NCBI GenBank assembly: GCA_001801085.1 | Contig: MGWR01000056.1 | Location: 1-53,043, forward strand | Origin: Gallionellales bacterium GWA2_60_142 | GTDB taxonomy: Bacteria > Pseudomonadota > Gammaproteobacteria > Burkholderiales > Gallionellaceae | Length of the DNA stretch: 53,043 bases | Direction of reading: 5' to 3' | In this document: piece after piece, positions 13,228 to 49,489 of the stretch | How the letters are laid out: every line of letters begins with the position of its first letter | How positions within the stretch are numbered: the stretch's first letter is position 1 | Made by a program: the position numbers and the translations under genes | The notes under the pieces: model-generated | Database searches by the model: none | Told to the model about the DNA's origin: nothing | Seen by the model: the letters and a program-made list of their open reading frames with translations, nothing else

Positions 13228-14016
13228 ATGAGGATCGCACTGGGCATCGAATACGACGGCCGACCGTTCTCAGGTTGGCAGAGTCAGGCGGATCGCGCGA
13301 CGGTGCAGGGCGCGTTACAGGTCGCGCTGAGCCAGATCGCCGGCGAAGTCATCGCCGTCACCGCCGCCGGACGTACAGACGCTGGCGTGCATGCGACCGA
13401 ACAAGTGGTGCACTTCGACACGCAGACCAACCGGCCGCTGACCGCCTGGGTGCGCGGCGCGAACGCGCTGCTGCCGGAGAGCGTCGCGGTGCGTTGGGCG
13501 CATGCGGTACCGGACGAATTTCACGCGCGCTTCTCTGCGCACGGACGTAGCTACCGCTACCTGTTGCTGAACCGCGCGATGCGCCCGGCGATCCAATCCG
13601 GCAAGGTTGGCTGGTTCCATGCGCCGCTGGATGTCGAAGTGATGCGGGAGGCCGCGCAGCACCTGCTGGGCGAGCACGACTTCAGCGCGTTCCGCGCGGC
13701 GGAATGCCAGGCCAAGTCGCCGGTTAAAACGCTGACCCGGCTCGACATCCGCCGCGAGAGCGACATGATCGTGTTCGATCTCAGCGCGGGTGCATTCTTG
13801 CACCACATGGTGCGCAATATCGTCGGCTGTCTGGTCTACGTCGGTAAAGGCAAGCATCCGCCGGAATGGCTGCGCGATGTGCTGGAAGGCCGCGAGCGCC
13901 GTCTTGCCGCGCCGACCTTCGCGCCCGATGGCTTATACTTGCGCCGCATTCGATACGAGGAAAAATGGGGATTGCCGCAGATGGACGACGAAACGATGCC
14001 GGGAGAATTGCTGTGA
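13228..14016 (+). CDS. truA: tRNA pseudouridine(38-40) synthase
   Basis: A 262-residue TruA that isomerises uridines 38-40 in the anticodon arm. The N-terminus [20 protein letters not shown] and the catalytic aspartate in [12 protein letters not shown] (near residue 52) are unmistakable, as are [14 protein letters not shown] and [11 protein letters not shown]. The start was placed at 13228; an ATG 14 bp upstream is followed by a stop. The bases ATGAGGATCGCAC occur twice in tandem here (13214-13226 and 13228-13240), a small duplication over the start. The stop overlaps the trpF GTG by GTGA. Confidence 0.96.
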
Positions 14017-20646: not shown

Positions 20647-22173
20647 ATGTGTGGCATTCTCGGAGTCGTTTCGCATACGCCGGCCAATCAGTTGCTGTAC
20701 GACGGCCTGCAGGTTTTGCAGCACCGCGGGCAGGATGCCGCCGGCATCGCCACGCTGGAGGGGCGCACCTTCCACCTGCACAAGGGCAACGGCCTGGTGC
20801 GCGACGTGTTCCGCACGCGCAACATGCGCGCGCTCAAGGGCAACGCCGGTATCGCGCATGTGCGCTACCCCACCGCCGGTTCCGCGGTGGATCACAACGA
20901 GGCGCAGCCGTTCTACGTGAACTCGCCGTTCGGCATCGTGCTCGGCCACAACGGCAACCTGACCAACACCGCCGAATTGCAGAAGCAGCTGTTCATGGAC
21001 GACCTGCGCCACGTCAACACCAACTCCGATTCGGAAGTGCTGCTGAACGTGCTGGCGCACGAGCTGCAATCCAAGTCCAAAGGTTTGCGTCTGGACGTGC
21101 CGACCATTTTCGCCGCAGTGTCCGGCGTGCATCAGCGTTGCAAGGGCGCGTATGCGGTGGTGGCGATGATCGCCGGCTACGGCCTGTTAGCGTTCCGCGA
21201 CATCTACGGCATCCGCCCGCTGGTGATCGGCGTGAACGAGACCGCGCAGGGTGCCGAATACCTGATCGCTTCCGAGAGCGTCGCGCTGGATACGCTGGGC
21301 TTCAAGTTCCTGCGCGATGTAGCACCCGGCGAGGCGGTGTTCGTCGACTTCGAGGGCAAGCTGCACAGCAAGCAATGCAGCGATAAGGCCAAGCTGAATT
21401 CCTGCATCTTCGAATACGTGTATTTCGCGCGTCCCGATTCGGTGATCGACGGCGTATCGGTGTACGAGACCCGCCTATACATGGGCGAATACCTCGCCGA
21501 AAAACTCAAGCGCACCTGGAGCGACGTGGACATCGACGTGGTGATCCCCATCCCCGACTCCAGCCGCCCGAGCGCGCTGCAACTGGCGAACCATCTCGAC
21601 ATTCCGTTCCGCGAAGGCTTCGTGAAGAACCGCTACATCGGTCGCACCTTCATCATGCCGGGGCAGGCGATGCGCAAGAAATCGGTGCGCCAGAAGCTGA
21701 ACGCCATCGGCGTCGAATTCAAGGGCAAGAACGTGCTGCTAGTGGATGACTCCATCGTGCGCGGCACCACCAGCCGCGAGATCGTGCAGATGGCGCGCGA
21801 CGCCGGCGCGCTGAAGGTCTACTTCGCCTCCGCTGCGCCGCCGGTGCGCTTCCCGAACGTGTACGGCATCGACATGCCGAGCCGCACCGAGCTGATCGCG
21901 ACCGGTCGTAGCGACGAGGAGATATGCCGCGAGATCGGGGCGGACGGCATCATCTATCAGGATCTGGAAGACCTGAAGGCGGCGGTGCGCAAGGCCAATC
22001 CGGCCATCGTCGATTTCGACGCCTCCTGTTTCGACGGCTGCTACATCACCGGCGACATCACGACGGAATATCTGGATGCCATCGAGGCGGCGCGCGGCGC
22101 AAGCAAGTCCGACAAGCCCGTGGACGACGACCAGATGGAGTTGAATCTGGCGATGAGCGTCAGTTCGATGTAG
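20647..22173 (+). CDS. purF: Amidophosphoribosyltransferase
   Basis: A 508-residue PurF that commits PRPP to purine synthesis. Cys2 (MCGILGVVS) is the N-terminal nucleophile of the glutamine amidohydrolase domain, which also shows [10 protein letters not shown] and GHNGNLTN. The C-terminal phosphoribosyltransferase half has the PRPP loop [14 protein letters not shown] (near residue 365) and [16 protein letters not shown]. The length is standard. It is third in dedD-cvpA-purF. A strong hairpin and the metZ leader follow. Confidence 0.97.
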
Positions 22174-22229
22174 GTAACCTGCTGTGCGGCCTGTGCCGGA
22201 TTGACAGGCTGCGCAGGCCGATGTTACTT
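22174..22229 (+). promoter_or_regulatory. Hairpin after purF overlapping the candidate metZ promoter
   Basis: CGGCCTGTGC (22187-22196) pairs with GCGCAGGCCG (22211-22220), and GTAAC (22174-22178) with GTTAC (22223-22227), a long stem after the purF stop. TTGACA (22201-22206) in the loop is a perfect -35; GTTACT (22223-22228), 16 bp on, is a weak -10. Initiation would fall near 22235, exactly at the riboswitch start. Confidence 0.5.
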
Positions 22230-22235
22230 TCCGAT

Positions 22236-22288
22236 TGCGCCGATTTGAGGAACAGCTTGCGGGCGCATAATAAATACAGCTAAAGCGG
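22236..22288 (+). ncRNA. SAM-II riboswitch upstream of metZ
   Basis: The stretch matches the SAM-II aptamer: P1 stem GCGCC (22237-22241) with GGCGC (22262-22266), the conserved GATTTG after the 5' strand (22242-22247), GCTTGC in the loop (22255-22260), then ATAATAAAT and AGCTAAA (22278-22284) followed by GCGGG, which closes the pseudoknot. SAM-II senses S-adenosylmethionine and lowers expression of methionine genes. It lies 54 bp before metZ, a sulfhydrylase of methionine synthesis. The downstream hairpins make transcription attenuation the likely output. Recognition is by conserved bases and pairing, read by eye. Confidence 0.9.
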
Positions 22289-22305
22289 GCGAACCCGGTT
22301 TAGCT
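22278..22305 (+). promoter_or_regulatory. Antiterminator hairpin of the metZ leader
   Basis: AGCTAAA (22278-22284) pairs with TTTAGCT (22299-22305), and CGGG (22286-22289) with CCCG (22294-22297), loop CGAA. It uses both the 3' part of the SAM-II pseudoknot and the 5' strand of the terminator, so it can form only without bound SAM. Confidence 0.75.
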
Positions 22306-22325
22306 CTAAGCTTTCCGGGTTTTTG
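22292..22325 (+). terminator. SAM-controlled attenuator before metZ
   Basis: AACCCGG (22292-22298) pairs with CCGGGTT (22315-22321), followed by TTTTT. Its 5' arm is shared with the antiterminator, giving a complete off switch when SAM is high. Confidence 0.85.
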
Positions 22326-22341
22326 CATTTCAGGGGACATC

Positions 22342-23514
22342 ATGTCAGATCAAGATCAATACCAGCCGGAGACGCTGGCGATACGCGCGGGCTCGGTGCA
22401 GAGCCAGTTCCACGAGCATAGCGAGGCGCTATTCCTGACCTCCAGCTTCACCTTCGACAACGCGGGGCAGGCCGCGCGGCGCTTCATCGGCGAAGAGGAA
22501 GGCAACATCTACGCGCGCTTCACCAATCCGACCGTGACGATGTTCGAGGAACGTCTCGCGGCGATGGAAGGCGCGGAGCAATGCGTCGCGACCGCATCCG
22601 GCATGTCGGCGATCCTCGCGTGCGTGATGGGTGTACTGAAGGCGGGCGATCATGTCGTCGCCTCGCGCAGTCTGTTTGGCGCGACGGTCAACCTGTTCAA
22701 CAACATCATCAAGAAGTTCGGCGTCGAGACGACTTATGTCTCCGCGACCGATGTCGCCGAGTGGCAGGCCGCGGTGCGCCCGAATACGAAACTGTTCTTC
22801 TTGGAGACGCCATCGAACCCTCTGACCGAGATCTCCGACATCGCGGCAATCGCCGCGGTCGCGAAAGGCTGCGGCGCGCTGCTGGCGGTGGACAACTGCT
22901 TCTGCACGCCCATTTTGCAAAAGCCGCTTGAGCTGGGCGCGGACATCGTGATCCACTCCGCGACCAAATATCTGGACGGGCAGGGCAGGGTGCTGGGTGG
23001 CGCGGTGCTGGGCAGCAAGAAGAACATGGAAGGCGTGTACGGATTCCTGCGCACCGCGGGTCCGACGATGAGCGCGTTCAATGCTTGGATATTCCTGAAG
23101 GGCATGGAGACGCTGAAGATACGCATGGACGCACACTCGGCCGGCGCACTGGAACTGGCGCGCTGGCTGGAAGCGCAGCCCAACGTCGCGCGCGTGTTCT
23201 ATCCCGGCCTGCCGTCGCATCCGCAGCATGAGCTGGCGATGCAGCAGCAGAAGACCGGCGGCGGCATCGTGTCGTTCGAGGTCAAGGGCGGCAAGGACGC
23301 GGCCTGGCGCGTGATCGACAGTACGAAGATGATCTCGATCACCGCGAACCTCGGCGACACGCGTACCACGATCACCCATCCGGCGACCACGACGCACGCG
23401 CGCATCACGCCCGAGGCGCGCGCCGCCGCCGGTATCACCGACGGCCTGATCCGCATCGCGGTCGGGCTGGAGGCGGTCGTGGACATCCGGAACGACCTCG
23501 CTCGCGGCCTGTAA
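22342..23514 (+). CDS. metZ: O-succinylhomoserine sulfhydrylase
   Basis: A 390-residue PLP enzyme of the Cys/Met metabolism family that makes homocysteine from O-succinylhomoserine and sulfide. The PLP lysine lies in HSATKYLDGQGRVLGGAV (near residue 212); the NIYARFTNPTV start and ETPSNPLTEI segment fit MetZ rather than MetY. It begins ATGTCAGATCAAGATC after AGGGGACATC and is controlled by the SAM-II leader. The pncC-like gene starts at the base following its stop. Choice of succinyl over acetyl ester is inferred from family resemblance. Confidence 0.93.
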   Translation: MSDQDQYQPETLAIRAGSVQSQFHEHSEALFLTSSFTFDNAGQAARRFIGEEEGNIYARFTNPTVTMFEERLAAMEGAEQCVATASGMSAILACVMGVLKAGDHVVASRSLFGATVNLFNNIIKKFGVETTYVSATDVAEWQAAVRPNTKLFFLETPSNPLTEISDIAAIAAVAKGCGALLAVDNCFCTPILQKPLELGADIVIHSATKYLDGQGRVLGGAVLGSKKNMEGVYGFLRTAGPTMSAFNAWIFLKGMETLKIRMDAHSAGALELARWLEAQPNVARVFYPGLPSHPQHELAMQQQKTGGGIVSFEVKGGKDAAWRVIDSTKMISITANLGDTRTTITHPATTTHARITPEARAAAGITDGLIRIAVGLEAVVDIRNDLARGL

Positions 23515-47047: not shown

Positions 47048-49489
47048 TTATTCAGTCTGCCGCGGCATATGCGTCCAGTAGCGTCTATGGCTTTGGCGGT
47101 AGCGTTCCAGCTTCAGGCCGTGAGTATCCATCTCGACCAGAATTGCGCCATCCATATCCGAGCGCAGCAGTTGCGCGCCGCTGTCGGCGTAGCGTTGCAG
47201 TACATCTGCGTGCGGGTGGCCGAAGCGGTTGCGGTAGCCGGAGGTGAACACCACATGGTCTGGCAATGTCGCGGCGACGAAGTCCTGGCTGGACGACGTC
47301 TTGCTGCCGTGATGGGGCGCGATCAGCAGTGTGGTGTGCAGGGCGTCGCCATGTTGCTTGAGCAGCCGCCGTTCGCCGCCTTTCTCGATGTCGCCGACCA
47401 GCAGGATGCGCTGATCGCCGATACCGATGCGCAGCACGCAGCTTAGTTCGTTGTCCTGCTTCTTGTCGTACACGCCCGGCGTCTTGTCCGGGTGCAGCAC
47501 GTCGAAGCGCACGCCATCCCATTCCCAGCCCTGTCCATCGGCGCAACGCTTTGTCTCCCATTTCCCGTTTACGGGATAACCAGCGACTTGTCCGCTTGCG
47601 GACTTAGTCGATTGGCTAGTTGTTCCATCAGAGGGGTTGGGGGAGCGGGGGAGCAGTCGGCGTAGCGGATGCTCGTCCGGCAGCGAAGACGACAGCCAGC
47701 CGGCCGGCATGGCTTGCAGCATCGAGGCAGCGCCGCCGATGTGGTCAAGGTCGTCGTGGCTGAGCATCATGCCATCCAGATCGGAAACTCCGAGTGCGCG
47801 CAGTGTTGGCACGAGGATGCGGTTGCCGCTGTCGGCTTCGCCGGAAAAGTCCGGGCCGGCGTCGTACAGCAGCGCATGGTTGTGGGTCTGGGCGGCGACG
47901 GCGAGCCCCTGTCCGACGTCGAACACGATCAGCCGCAATGTGCCATCCGCCGGAGGTTCGGGTGCGTTCAGAAACATCGGCAACATCAACGGCACGCCCA
48001 GCCAGCGCGCCGGGAAACCGCGCGGCAACAGCAGCCACATTGCGCCCAGCACGGCGACGACGATGCTCCATGCGGGCGGGGCGTGCTGCGTCCACACTGC
48101 CTGCGGCATTGCACTCAACCATTCGAGGAAGCGCATCGTCCCGTCCATCGCGATATGCGCCAGCCACAGCGGAACCTCGGTCGGCAGGGCCGCGCCGAGC
48201 AGCACCAGCGGCACGACGATCAGGCTGACCAGCGGGATTGCCAGCGCGTTGGCGAGCGGCGAGACCAGCGACACCTGCTGGAATAGCGCGAGCAGCAGCG
48301 GCGTCAGGCCGACGGTCATCGCCCATTGCACCGCCGTGTATTCCTTCAGCCATGACAGGTGTTCGATGCGGTGCGCGGTCACGTACAGAATCAGCACGAC
48401 CGCGCCGAACGACAGCCAGAAACCTGCCGAAGTCGCCGCCCAGGGATCGGGGATCAATACGCCCAGCAGCGCAATCGCGAGTATCTGACCGAGCGAGAAA
48501 TTGCGGTTCAGCCACAGCGCGGCAGTCACCGCGGCGACCATGTACACGGTGCGCTGCGCCGGTACGGCGAAACCGGCGAGCAGCGCGTAGCCGATCGCCG
48601 TCAGCAGCGCGGCGAGTGCGGCTGCCTTGCGCGCCGGTAGCCACAGCGTCAGCCGCGTACTGCGCCGCCACAGCCAGTAAGCGACGGCGAAGGCGAGGCT
48701 GGCGAGCATGGTGATATGGAGTCCGGAGATCGACATCAAATGGTTGACCCCGGTGCGCGTGAACACCTGCCATTGGGGCGAGGGGATGCCGGCTTGGTCG
48801 CCTATCGCCAGCGCGCTCAACACGCCGGCGTAGGGCGCGCCGGCCAGCGTCGCGGAAAATTTGTCGCGCACCGCCTCGCGCCATGTCTCGATGCGGTAGT
48901 CGAATCCTTCCGCGAGTTCGTCCAGCCTTGCGTTGTCTCCTTTCGAATGCACGTAGCCGACAGCGCGCAGGTCGCGTTCCAGCATCCATCCCTCGAAATC
49001 GAAACCGCCCGGATTTGCCGTGCCGTGCGGCTGTTTCAGGCGCAGCGTGAAACGCCAGCGTTCGCCGGCGTGGACGGCGGGCGGCGGCGATTTGTCGTTG
49101 GCGTAGGTGCTGAGGTAGACATGCGCCGGCACTTTCGCACCTTCGGTCAGAACCTGCTCGATGTCGAAGCGGAAGCGCAATCCGCGCTCGTGGCTGCGTG
49201 GCGGCTCCGCCACCACGCCGACGACGGCGATGTCACGTCCTTGCCATTCGTCCGACAGGGCAGACGACAGCCGTTGATCGGCCCGCCACGCGGCGTGGTA
49301 AAAGCCCAGCCCGCAGGCGAGCAGCGCGATCGCGATGGCGCGGGAGAAGCGCAGCAGGGGAGTGCGGCGAGGAATCAGCAGCGCAGGCAAAAGCCCGGGC
49401 AACAGCCAGGCCCAGACAAAGTCGGGCAGCACCGGCTGTTGTTGCAGCCACCACACGCCCAGAGTGAATGAAATCGCGAAGACAACCAT
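47048..49489 (-). CDS. comEC: DNA internalisation channel ComEC/Rec2
   Basis: An 813-residue membrane protein that forms the channel for single-stranded DNA in natural transformation. N-terminal helices and a DUF4131-type OB domain (residues about 30-180), the competence core with SISGLHITMLASLAF and FAVPAQRTVYMVAAV (about 220-490), then a metallo-beta-lactamase-like domain with VFDVGQGLAVAAQ, LLYDAGPDF, MMLSHDDLDHIGG and LIAPHHGSKTSS. Near residue 613-645 is an odd segment (RSPNPSDGTTSQSTKSAS through NGKWETK) rich in small palindromes at DNA level, probably a repeat insertion. With FimV it suggests type IV pilus based DNA uptake. Confidence 0.93.
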   Translation of the reverse strand: MVVFAISFTLGVWWLQQQPVLPDFVWAWLLPGLLPALLIPRRTPLLRFSRAIAIALLACGLGFYHAAWRADQRLSSALSDEWQGRDIAVVGVVAEPPRSHERGLRFRFDIEQVLTEGAKVPAHVYLSTYANDKSPPPAVHAGERWRFTLRLKQPHGTANPGGFDFEGWMLERDLRAVGYVHSKGDNARLDELAEGFDYRIETWREAVRDKFSATLAGAPYAGVLSALAIGDQAGIPSPQWQVFTRTGVNHLMSISGLHITMLASLAFAVAYWLWRRSTRLTLWLPARKAAALAALLTAIGYALLAGFAVPAQRTVYMVAAVTAALWLNRNFSLGQILAIALLGVLIPDPWAATSAGFWLSFGAVVLILYVTAHRIEHLSWLKEYTAVQWAMTVGLTPLLLALFQQVSLVSPLANALAIPLVSLIVVPLVLLGAALPTEVPLWLAHIAMDGTMRFLEWLSAMPQAVWTQHAPPAWSIVVAVLGAMWLLLPRGFPARWLGVPLMLPMFLNAPEPPADGTLRLIVFDVGQGLAVAAQTHNHALLYDAGPDFSGEADSGNRILVPTLRALGVSDLDGMMLSHDDLDHIGGAASMLQAMPAGWLSSSLPDEHPLRRLLPRSPNPSDGTTSQSTKSASGQVAGYPVNGKWETKRCADGQGWEWDGVRFDVLHPDKTPGVYDKKQDNELSCVLRIGIGDQRILLVGDIEKGGERRLLKQHGDALHTTLLIAPHHGSKTSSSQDFVAATLPDHVVFTSGYRNRFGHPHADVLQRYADSGAQLLRSDMDGAILVEMDTHGLKLERYRQSHRRYWTHMPRQTE
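47553..47650. repeat. Palindrome-rich insertion in comEC
   Basis: CCCGTTTACGGG and GTCCGCTTGCGGAC (a 6-bp stem) lie side by side, followed by GGGGTTGGGGGAGCGGGGG. The encoded segment has no counterpart in the family fold. The exact ends are uncertain. Confidence 0.5.

Follow-up and report, generated by a model that had tools for sequence, protein, structure and literature searches.

What controls metZ in a member of the Gallionellaceae? The question is raised by a short interval in the 53,043-nucleotide stretch of DNA analysed here (the window), contig MGWR01000056.1 of Gallionellales bacterium GWA2_60_142, in which purF (20647-22173, + strand; TIGR01134, 529.2 bits for a cut-off of 350) ends 168 bases before the next gene. 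That gene (22342-23514, + strand, with its ATG at 22342) is established as metZ, encoding O-succinylhomoserine sulfhydrylase, by two protein models (NF006003, 732 bits for a cut-off of 522; TIGR01325, 610.8 bits for a cut-off of 510.05), as a first-pass annotation made from the letters had proposed. The same annotation had read in the interval a SAM-II riboswitch with a complete terminator/antiterminator switch. Our analysis argues for a SAM-II riboswitch that would attenuate metZ transcription, a reading to which we give a probability of about 0.9.

The Rfam covariance search that the first-pass annotation had suggested as a check is significant. A cmscan of the 53,043-base window with Rfam 15 matches RF00521 (SAM_alpha, that is SAM-II) at 22227-22304 on the + strand, and RF00521 is the sole Rfam family to reach its gathering threshold in the 53 kb. 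The score of 36.5 bits passes the gathering value of 36 by a narrow 0.5 bit, with E-values of 1.1e-4 for the whole window and 1.1e-6 for the 501 bases at 22000-22500. Model R2, which was built from related RNAs and includes no window sequence, scores the same place at 51.5 bits (E 2.4e-16). The aptamer occupies 22236-22286 (+) and consists, as read from the sequence, of P1 (22236-22241/22262-22267) and a pseudoknot, P2 (22255-22258/22283-22286 plus 22259-22260/22279-22280), within which U22281 and A22282 are bulged. P1 and P2 with the conserved core, upstream of a methionine gene, are among the features of a SAM-II member, and they are found here. By covariance model, 22236-22286 is a SAM-II aptamer, as the first-pass annotation had proposed, and it would be expected to bind SAM and to reject SAH.

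The structure was further examined in an alignment of 19 rows, hand-picked for diversity from 89 distinct SAM-II leaders that were themselves drawn from loci up to L190. The window row shares every invariant position of this alignment, and 98.7% of the cells are paired, as against 15-51% when the structure is slid along the rows. The covariation score is 0.136 versus 0.057 for shuffled alignments (reached in 0/500 shuffles) and up to 0.091 for slid structures, with the proviso that the shuffle figures overstate the case, the sequences compared being related. On the same 19 rows, neither the count of doubly changed pairs (2; 145/500 shuffles) nor that of pair types (5; 366/500) rises above shuffles. 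The covariation support comes wholly from P1, the pseudoknot being without covariation because its bases hardly vary.

Downstream of P1, two hairpins compete for the same letters. An antiterminator hairpin (22278-22305, + strand, -16.1 kcal/mol) pairs AGCUAAA (22278-22284) with UUUAGCU (22299-22305) around an inner CGGG/CCCG stem, and an intrinsic terminator hairpin (22292-22321, + strand, -13.9 kcal/mol) pairs AACCCGG (22292-22298) with CCGGGUU (22315-22321) around an inner AGCU/AGCU and runs into a U tract (22320-22324, +). The two hairpins are mutually exclusive in the window, and the arms that the first-pass annotation had described as shared, AGCTAAA and AACCCGG, are indeed shared, each pairing being present. 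The pattern AGCTAAA-N8-20-TTTAGCT characterizes the antiterminator, occurs once in the window as this element and is matched in 0/100 shuffles. A side hit of a pattern search, at 13710, lies in sequence that resembles coding DNA and would by eye be a chance match. Fold energies, obtained by a nearest-neighbour calculation that does not include the pseudoknot, place the two states nearly level when each is forced on 22234-22326 (antiterminator -29.3 kcal/mol, terminator -29.8). In folds of a chain growing from 22234 in steps of 4 bases, the antiterminator (-28.6 kcal/mol) prevails from 22306 to 22318 and the terminator (-29.5) appears at 22322, and when the pseudoknot strands are blocked as a stand-in for SAM binding, the terminator remains. 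In this model, a hold on the shared strand would decide between two near-level states.

This anatomy is conserved. By a lenient test that has no shuffled control of its own, 88/89 of the distinct leaders have a T run preceded by a terminator-like hairpin. An antiterminator, scored when 4 or more of the 6 bases of GCTAAA are paired downstream, is kept in 79 of these 88 leaders and absent by the same measure in the other 9; after composition-preserving shuffling of the downstream letters, it is found in 975/4400 cases (22%). In the 45 metZ leaders, that is the window and 44 loci selected by the aptamer core pattern, at least 4 T follow the stem in 45/45, and CGGTTT[AG]GC is likewise present in 45/45 (34 with A, 11 with G, either of which can pair with the aptamer U). 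Furthermore, the terminator stem covaries. Among the 36 distinct arm sets obtained from the 86/89 leaders that could be parsed, 33 have a standard pair at the first variable position after CCCG, of the types TA, AT, GC, CG and TG (shuffle mean 16.9; 0/2000 as high), the second and third pairs being much weaker (24/36 each, equalled in 231/2000 and 31/2000 shuffles). The antiterminator/terminator anatomy of the first-pass annotation stands on these counts. As a separate observation, an insert of about 56 bases lies in the terminator loop of seven loci (L065, L076, L091, L094, L102, L013 and L084) with both stem arms intact; the insert belongs to a repeat dispersed through the genus, with matches in 31/38 genomes and 21 in the genome studied here, and a related copy can be seen by eye in the window at 47577-47619 (-).

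A promoter precedes the aptamer. The -35 hexamer TTGACA (22201-22206, +) is conserved in metZ leaders, and so is an extended -10 (TG-T-TACTTT, 22222-22230, +) in the 45-row alignment; TACTTT itself is weak and has a TG before it. In 42/45 metZ leaders, TTGAC has a TGN and a -10-like T[AT]NNTT downstream of it, which agrees with the earlier proposal that a TTGACA starts the RNA at the aptamer and suggests a start near 22236. Strict scans of 22100-22400 returned no sigma-70 consensus promoter and no + strand terminator; the loop of the window terminator exceeds that scan's loop limit of 8. Support for promoter and terminator comes instead from conservation.

In the proposed mechanism, RNA polymerase would start near 22236. 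With little SAM present, the free 3' strand of the aptamer, AGCUAAA, would pair with UUUAGCU; because the resulting antiterminator would occupy the 5' arm of the terminator, metZ would be transcribed. When SAM is abundant, the AGCUAAA strand would be locked in the pseudoknot, the antiterminator would be blocked and the terminator would form, with transcription stopping at about 22322-22324. SAM would accordingly act as an OFF signal, a direction of control that we infer, like SAM binding and the start and stop sites, from the arrangement of the arms.

To see how widely the element occurs, the best 80 of at least 471 MetZ relatives found by protein search were inspected; their names include Gallionella, Sideroxydans, Ferrigenium and Ferriphaselus as well as broader ones such as Nitrosomonadales and Proteobacteria bacterium. 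By pattern, the element lies within 260 bases of metZ in 44/80 of these best-ranked loci and is lacking in 33/80, and the 11 top-ranked relatives (L031-L041) are all without it. The other three (L078, L083 and L087) carry a SAM-II 634-688 bases upstream of metZ, before an intervening ORF of 206, 149 and 206 aa, respectively, which metZ follows; the ORF of L078 is an FMN_bind_2 protein (PF04299, 202 bits; paiB-like), and those of L083 and L087 are similar by eye. In L009 and L188, a SAM-II likewise stands before another gene, which resembles that of L078 by eye. The Rfam model sees only part of this group, with a match to RF00521 at E 0.001 or better in 28/61 genomes and above cut-off in 13/61. 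A second SAM-II copy in the same genome, on contig 37, scores 35.7 bits with RF00521, just under threshold, and again shows an AACCCG...CGGGTT stem and T runs. It precedes a 379-aa alpha/beta-hydrolase (Abhydrolase_1), which is probably MetX by its context and family likeness.

Three other explanations of the interval were weighed. A switch in which SAM binding hides the ribosome site and transcription is not ended would agree with the passages of Huang and Lilley (2018) that report translational SAM-II riboswitches as a minor subset, and in the whole-leader fold UUUCC (22312-22316) does pair with GGGGA (22333-22337); this pairing, however, arises together with the antiterminator, in the ON state, and is worth only about 2 kcal/mol. 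The probable Shine-Dalgarno of metZ, GGGG (22333-22336, +; read from the sequence), is outside the aptamer and outside both hairpins, beginning 47 positions past the last base of the aptamer. The distance from terminator to metZ ranges in relatives from about 16 to 145 bases and the U tract is kept in 45/45 metZ leaders, and translational control is in our opinion very improbable. We give even less weight to a plain purF terminator standing behind an aptamer relic, with no switching. While purF does end only 168 bases upstream of metZ and damaged versions of the element persist in relatives (degenerate in L080, without the 5' half of the aptamer in L084, both by eye), 42/45 leaders have a promoter after purF and before the aptamer, and the antiterminator is kept in 79/88, both of which speak against such a terminator. 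In 19 of the 33 element-less loci (e.g. L032-L034 and L037, in the group without the element), a PurF-like frame, seen by eye, ends 37-98 bases before metZ, leaving little room for a terminator; because this frame stops so near to metZ, promoter and switch are simply absent from those 19 loci.

The same switch could also answer to SAH or to a derivative of SAM, as ligand identity is not readable from sequence. Against this stand the positions invariant in the 19-row SAM-II alignment, which the window row keeps, the genes concerned (metZ and a probable metX, as in known SAM-II) and the strong discrimination of SAM-II against SAH reported in the text of Corbino 2005 (PMC1273637), and we regard this possibility as the least credible of all. 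We therefore retain a SAM-II riboswitch attenuating metZ transcription as the preferred reading.

The window element is one more member of an already described kind of switch. The relevant text of Corbino 2005 (PMC1273637) places the promoter of SAM-II usually just before P1, mentions putative terminators in many representatives and names Bordetella in a figure key. With RF00521 the window element shares P1 and pseudoknot, core bases, the promoter before P1, the terminator before the gene and a methionine gene; it differs by its weak Rfam score and in that its long outer antiterminator encloses a CGGG/CCCG stem and hardly varies among the aligned metZ leaders. In Sinorhizobium meliloti, according to the passages of Scheuer 2022 (PMC9373788), metZ is preceded by a SAM-II with a predicted SAM-induced terminator, and the sRNA RZ is described along with this riboswitch; likened by description, that system shares with ours the SAM-II before metZ and the predicted terminator, its host being an alphaproteobacterium. 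The first-pass annotation had considered a transcription-attenuating SAM-II in a betaproteobacterium notable, a judgement that did not hold up, as most SAM-II riboswitches act on transcription in the account of Huang and Lilley (2018) and the text of Leyn 2014 (PMC4239095) already describes a terminator-antiterminator RNA in beta-proteobacteria. No match row for SAM-V (RF01826) appeared in the Rfam scans of the window; that the library used includes this family is assumed from a description of Rfam 14. SAM-V is described as having a closely similar pseudoknot core, but as translational and as the translational partner in SAM-II/SAM-V tandems.

The beta-proteobacterial RNA of Leyn 2014, the metXZ element, is placed by its text before metX or metZ, in the case of metZ in Methylophilales, Nitrosospira and Thiobacillus, and among its six conserved regions, drawn in its Figure 8, the pairs 1/4 and 2/6 are described as a pseudoknot. 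These pairs, as described there, would fit P1 and P2 of SAM-II. The window element, L002 on contig 37 and their relatives likewise stand before metX or metZ in beta-proteobacteria, a class assigned here by the names of the nearest MetZ relatives, and are followed by a terminator, and the likeness extends to the pseudoknot alternative and a proposed antiterminator. By description, the antiterminators differ, Leyn 2014 speculating on the GC-rich regions 3 and 4 where the window has GCUAAA/UUUAGC, and the metXZ element is not recognised as SAM-II in that text. The two elements are very probably the same thing, judging by the described pairing, gene and taxon rather than by the figures. Leyn 2014 lists SAM_alpha, from scanning with Rfam profiles, only for Rhizobiales and Rhodobacterales, which the low RF00521 scores in the present group may explain. 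With this locus, a further methionine gene would come under SAM-II attenuation, the shared arms of the switch being plainly legible. The locus also joins two threads of the literature, given the likeness of the metXZ element of beta-proteobacteria to SAM-II.

A related RNA came to light beside the metX copy. In the same genome but outside the window, L002 carries on contig 37 (2003-2056, -) a diverged SAM-II-like RNA with the same core, preceding a 65-aa ORF without match in Pfam, plasmids or phages and for which a protein search of 61 genomes returned only itself; the 60-aa ORF after the L113 copy looks related to it by eye and has no Pfam match. A DNA search found relatives of the L002 RNA in other families of the order, the copy in L114 standing directly after a true SAM-II and its terminator. 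The order searched is GTDB's Burkholderiales, which includes the beta-proteobacteria. Model R1, made from three sequences, matches 169/399 genomes of the order and also ordinary SAM-II, so that it gives no count of a new branch.

Many relatives precede metK. Leaders of this gene were collected from 110/140 genomes, namely the first 109 of a MetK table and the genome studied here; the table is ranked by likeness to the MetK of L138, whose leader carries the RNA, and the sample is therefore not unbiased. A TTGC...GCTAAAG core is present by pattern in 29/110 leaders, or 27 after removal of a true SAM-II (L193) and a partial copy (L297). R2 exceeds 30 bits in the same 27/110, several of which are among the sequences in the model, and in six (L263, L266, L267, L277, L281 and L288) the match is confined to the 5' part of the model. 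The RNA was not found in the metK leader of the genome studied here (L300), and at least six of the 30 left-out genomes carry it (L163, L173, L175, L181, L183 and L184). Rfam barely registers this RNA: in a scan of 14 loci (8 metK) with E up to 5, RF00521 gave only 20.4 bits, in L129, and in 8 further metK loci nothing reached gathering.

The structure of this RNA was examined in 34 hand-chosen rows free of long inserts, of which 25 stand before metK and 9 before other genes. In these rows, 95.1% of cells are paired (32-58% for slid structures), 33 cells are doubly changed versus 12.9 when shuffled, and the covariation score is 0.185 versus 0.081 (0/500). The 12 pair types are no more than shuffling gives (417/500), and 18/29 rows leave the outermost P1 pair open. 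Both P1 and the pseudoknot covary, as illustrated by P1 pair 2/35 (CG 15, UA 10, GC 7, AU 1, UG 1) and pseudoknot pair 29/48 (GC 12, AU 9, GU 2, other 1, gap 10). Furthermore, in 49 metK leaders the score for complementarity between the 22 bases after the aptamer and the 22 before the start codon averages 17.0 with the leader's own start region, 13.5 with those of other leaders and 12.4 when shuffled. The complementary partner is the Shine-Dalgarno itself in many leaders and the adjacent hairpin arm in some (e.g. L128, L130, L137, L153, L155 and L257).

The window aptamer and this RNA would belong to one superfamily rather than to a new fold, because R2 also scores the window SAM-II at 51.5 bits and matches 113/229 genomes of the class; the presumed ligand of both is SAM. 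At what we consider even odds, the RNA would represent a second branch of the SAM-II superfamily, missed at threshold by Rfam 15 scans, acting in part of the beta-proteobacteria as a translational metK switch (a SAM-II-like pseudoknot with an anti-Shine-Dalgarno) and also as second member of tandems with a terminator-bearing SAM-II. According to the text of Leyn 2014 (PMC4239095), metK of beta-proteobacteria has no known regulator, one having been sought without success, and this branch, if real, would supply it. If the metK leader RNA binds SAM, it would be a direct feedback switch on the SAM synthetase gene in a good part of the order, uncalled by the Rfam models used. No description of a beta-proteobacterial metK RNA was found in the passages of the open-access literature on the subject (including PMC2864571, PMC9481103, PMC11109978, PMC8632094 and PMC4239095), and the metK-linked RNAs in the text of PMC2864571 are only those of Rhodobacterales and Chlorobi. 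Sherlock 2022 counts 44 tandem SAM-II pairs, and in some of them the second member is of the ribosome-site type; some of the present loci may be among these 44.

Tandems in which a true SAM-II and its terminator-like stem are followed by a SAM-II-like RNA occur in L114 (1373-1610), L152, L157, L160, L161, L168, L170 and L171, and the seven after L114 precede an ORF starting M[YF]DC. Some genomes of the order (G064, G065, G142 and others) have two MetK-like matches, and in G142 the better match has as its leader (L193) a true SAM-II that bears a terminator-like stem.
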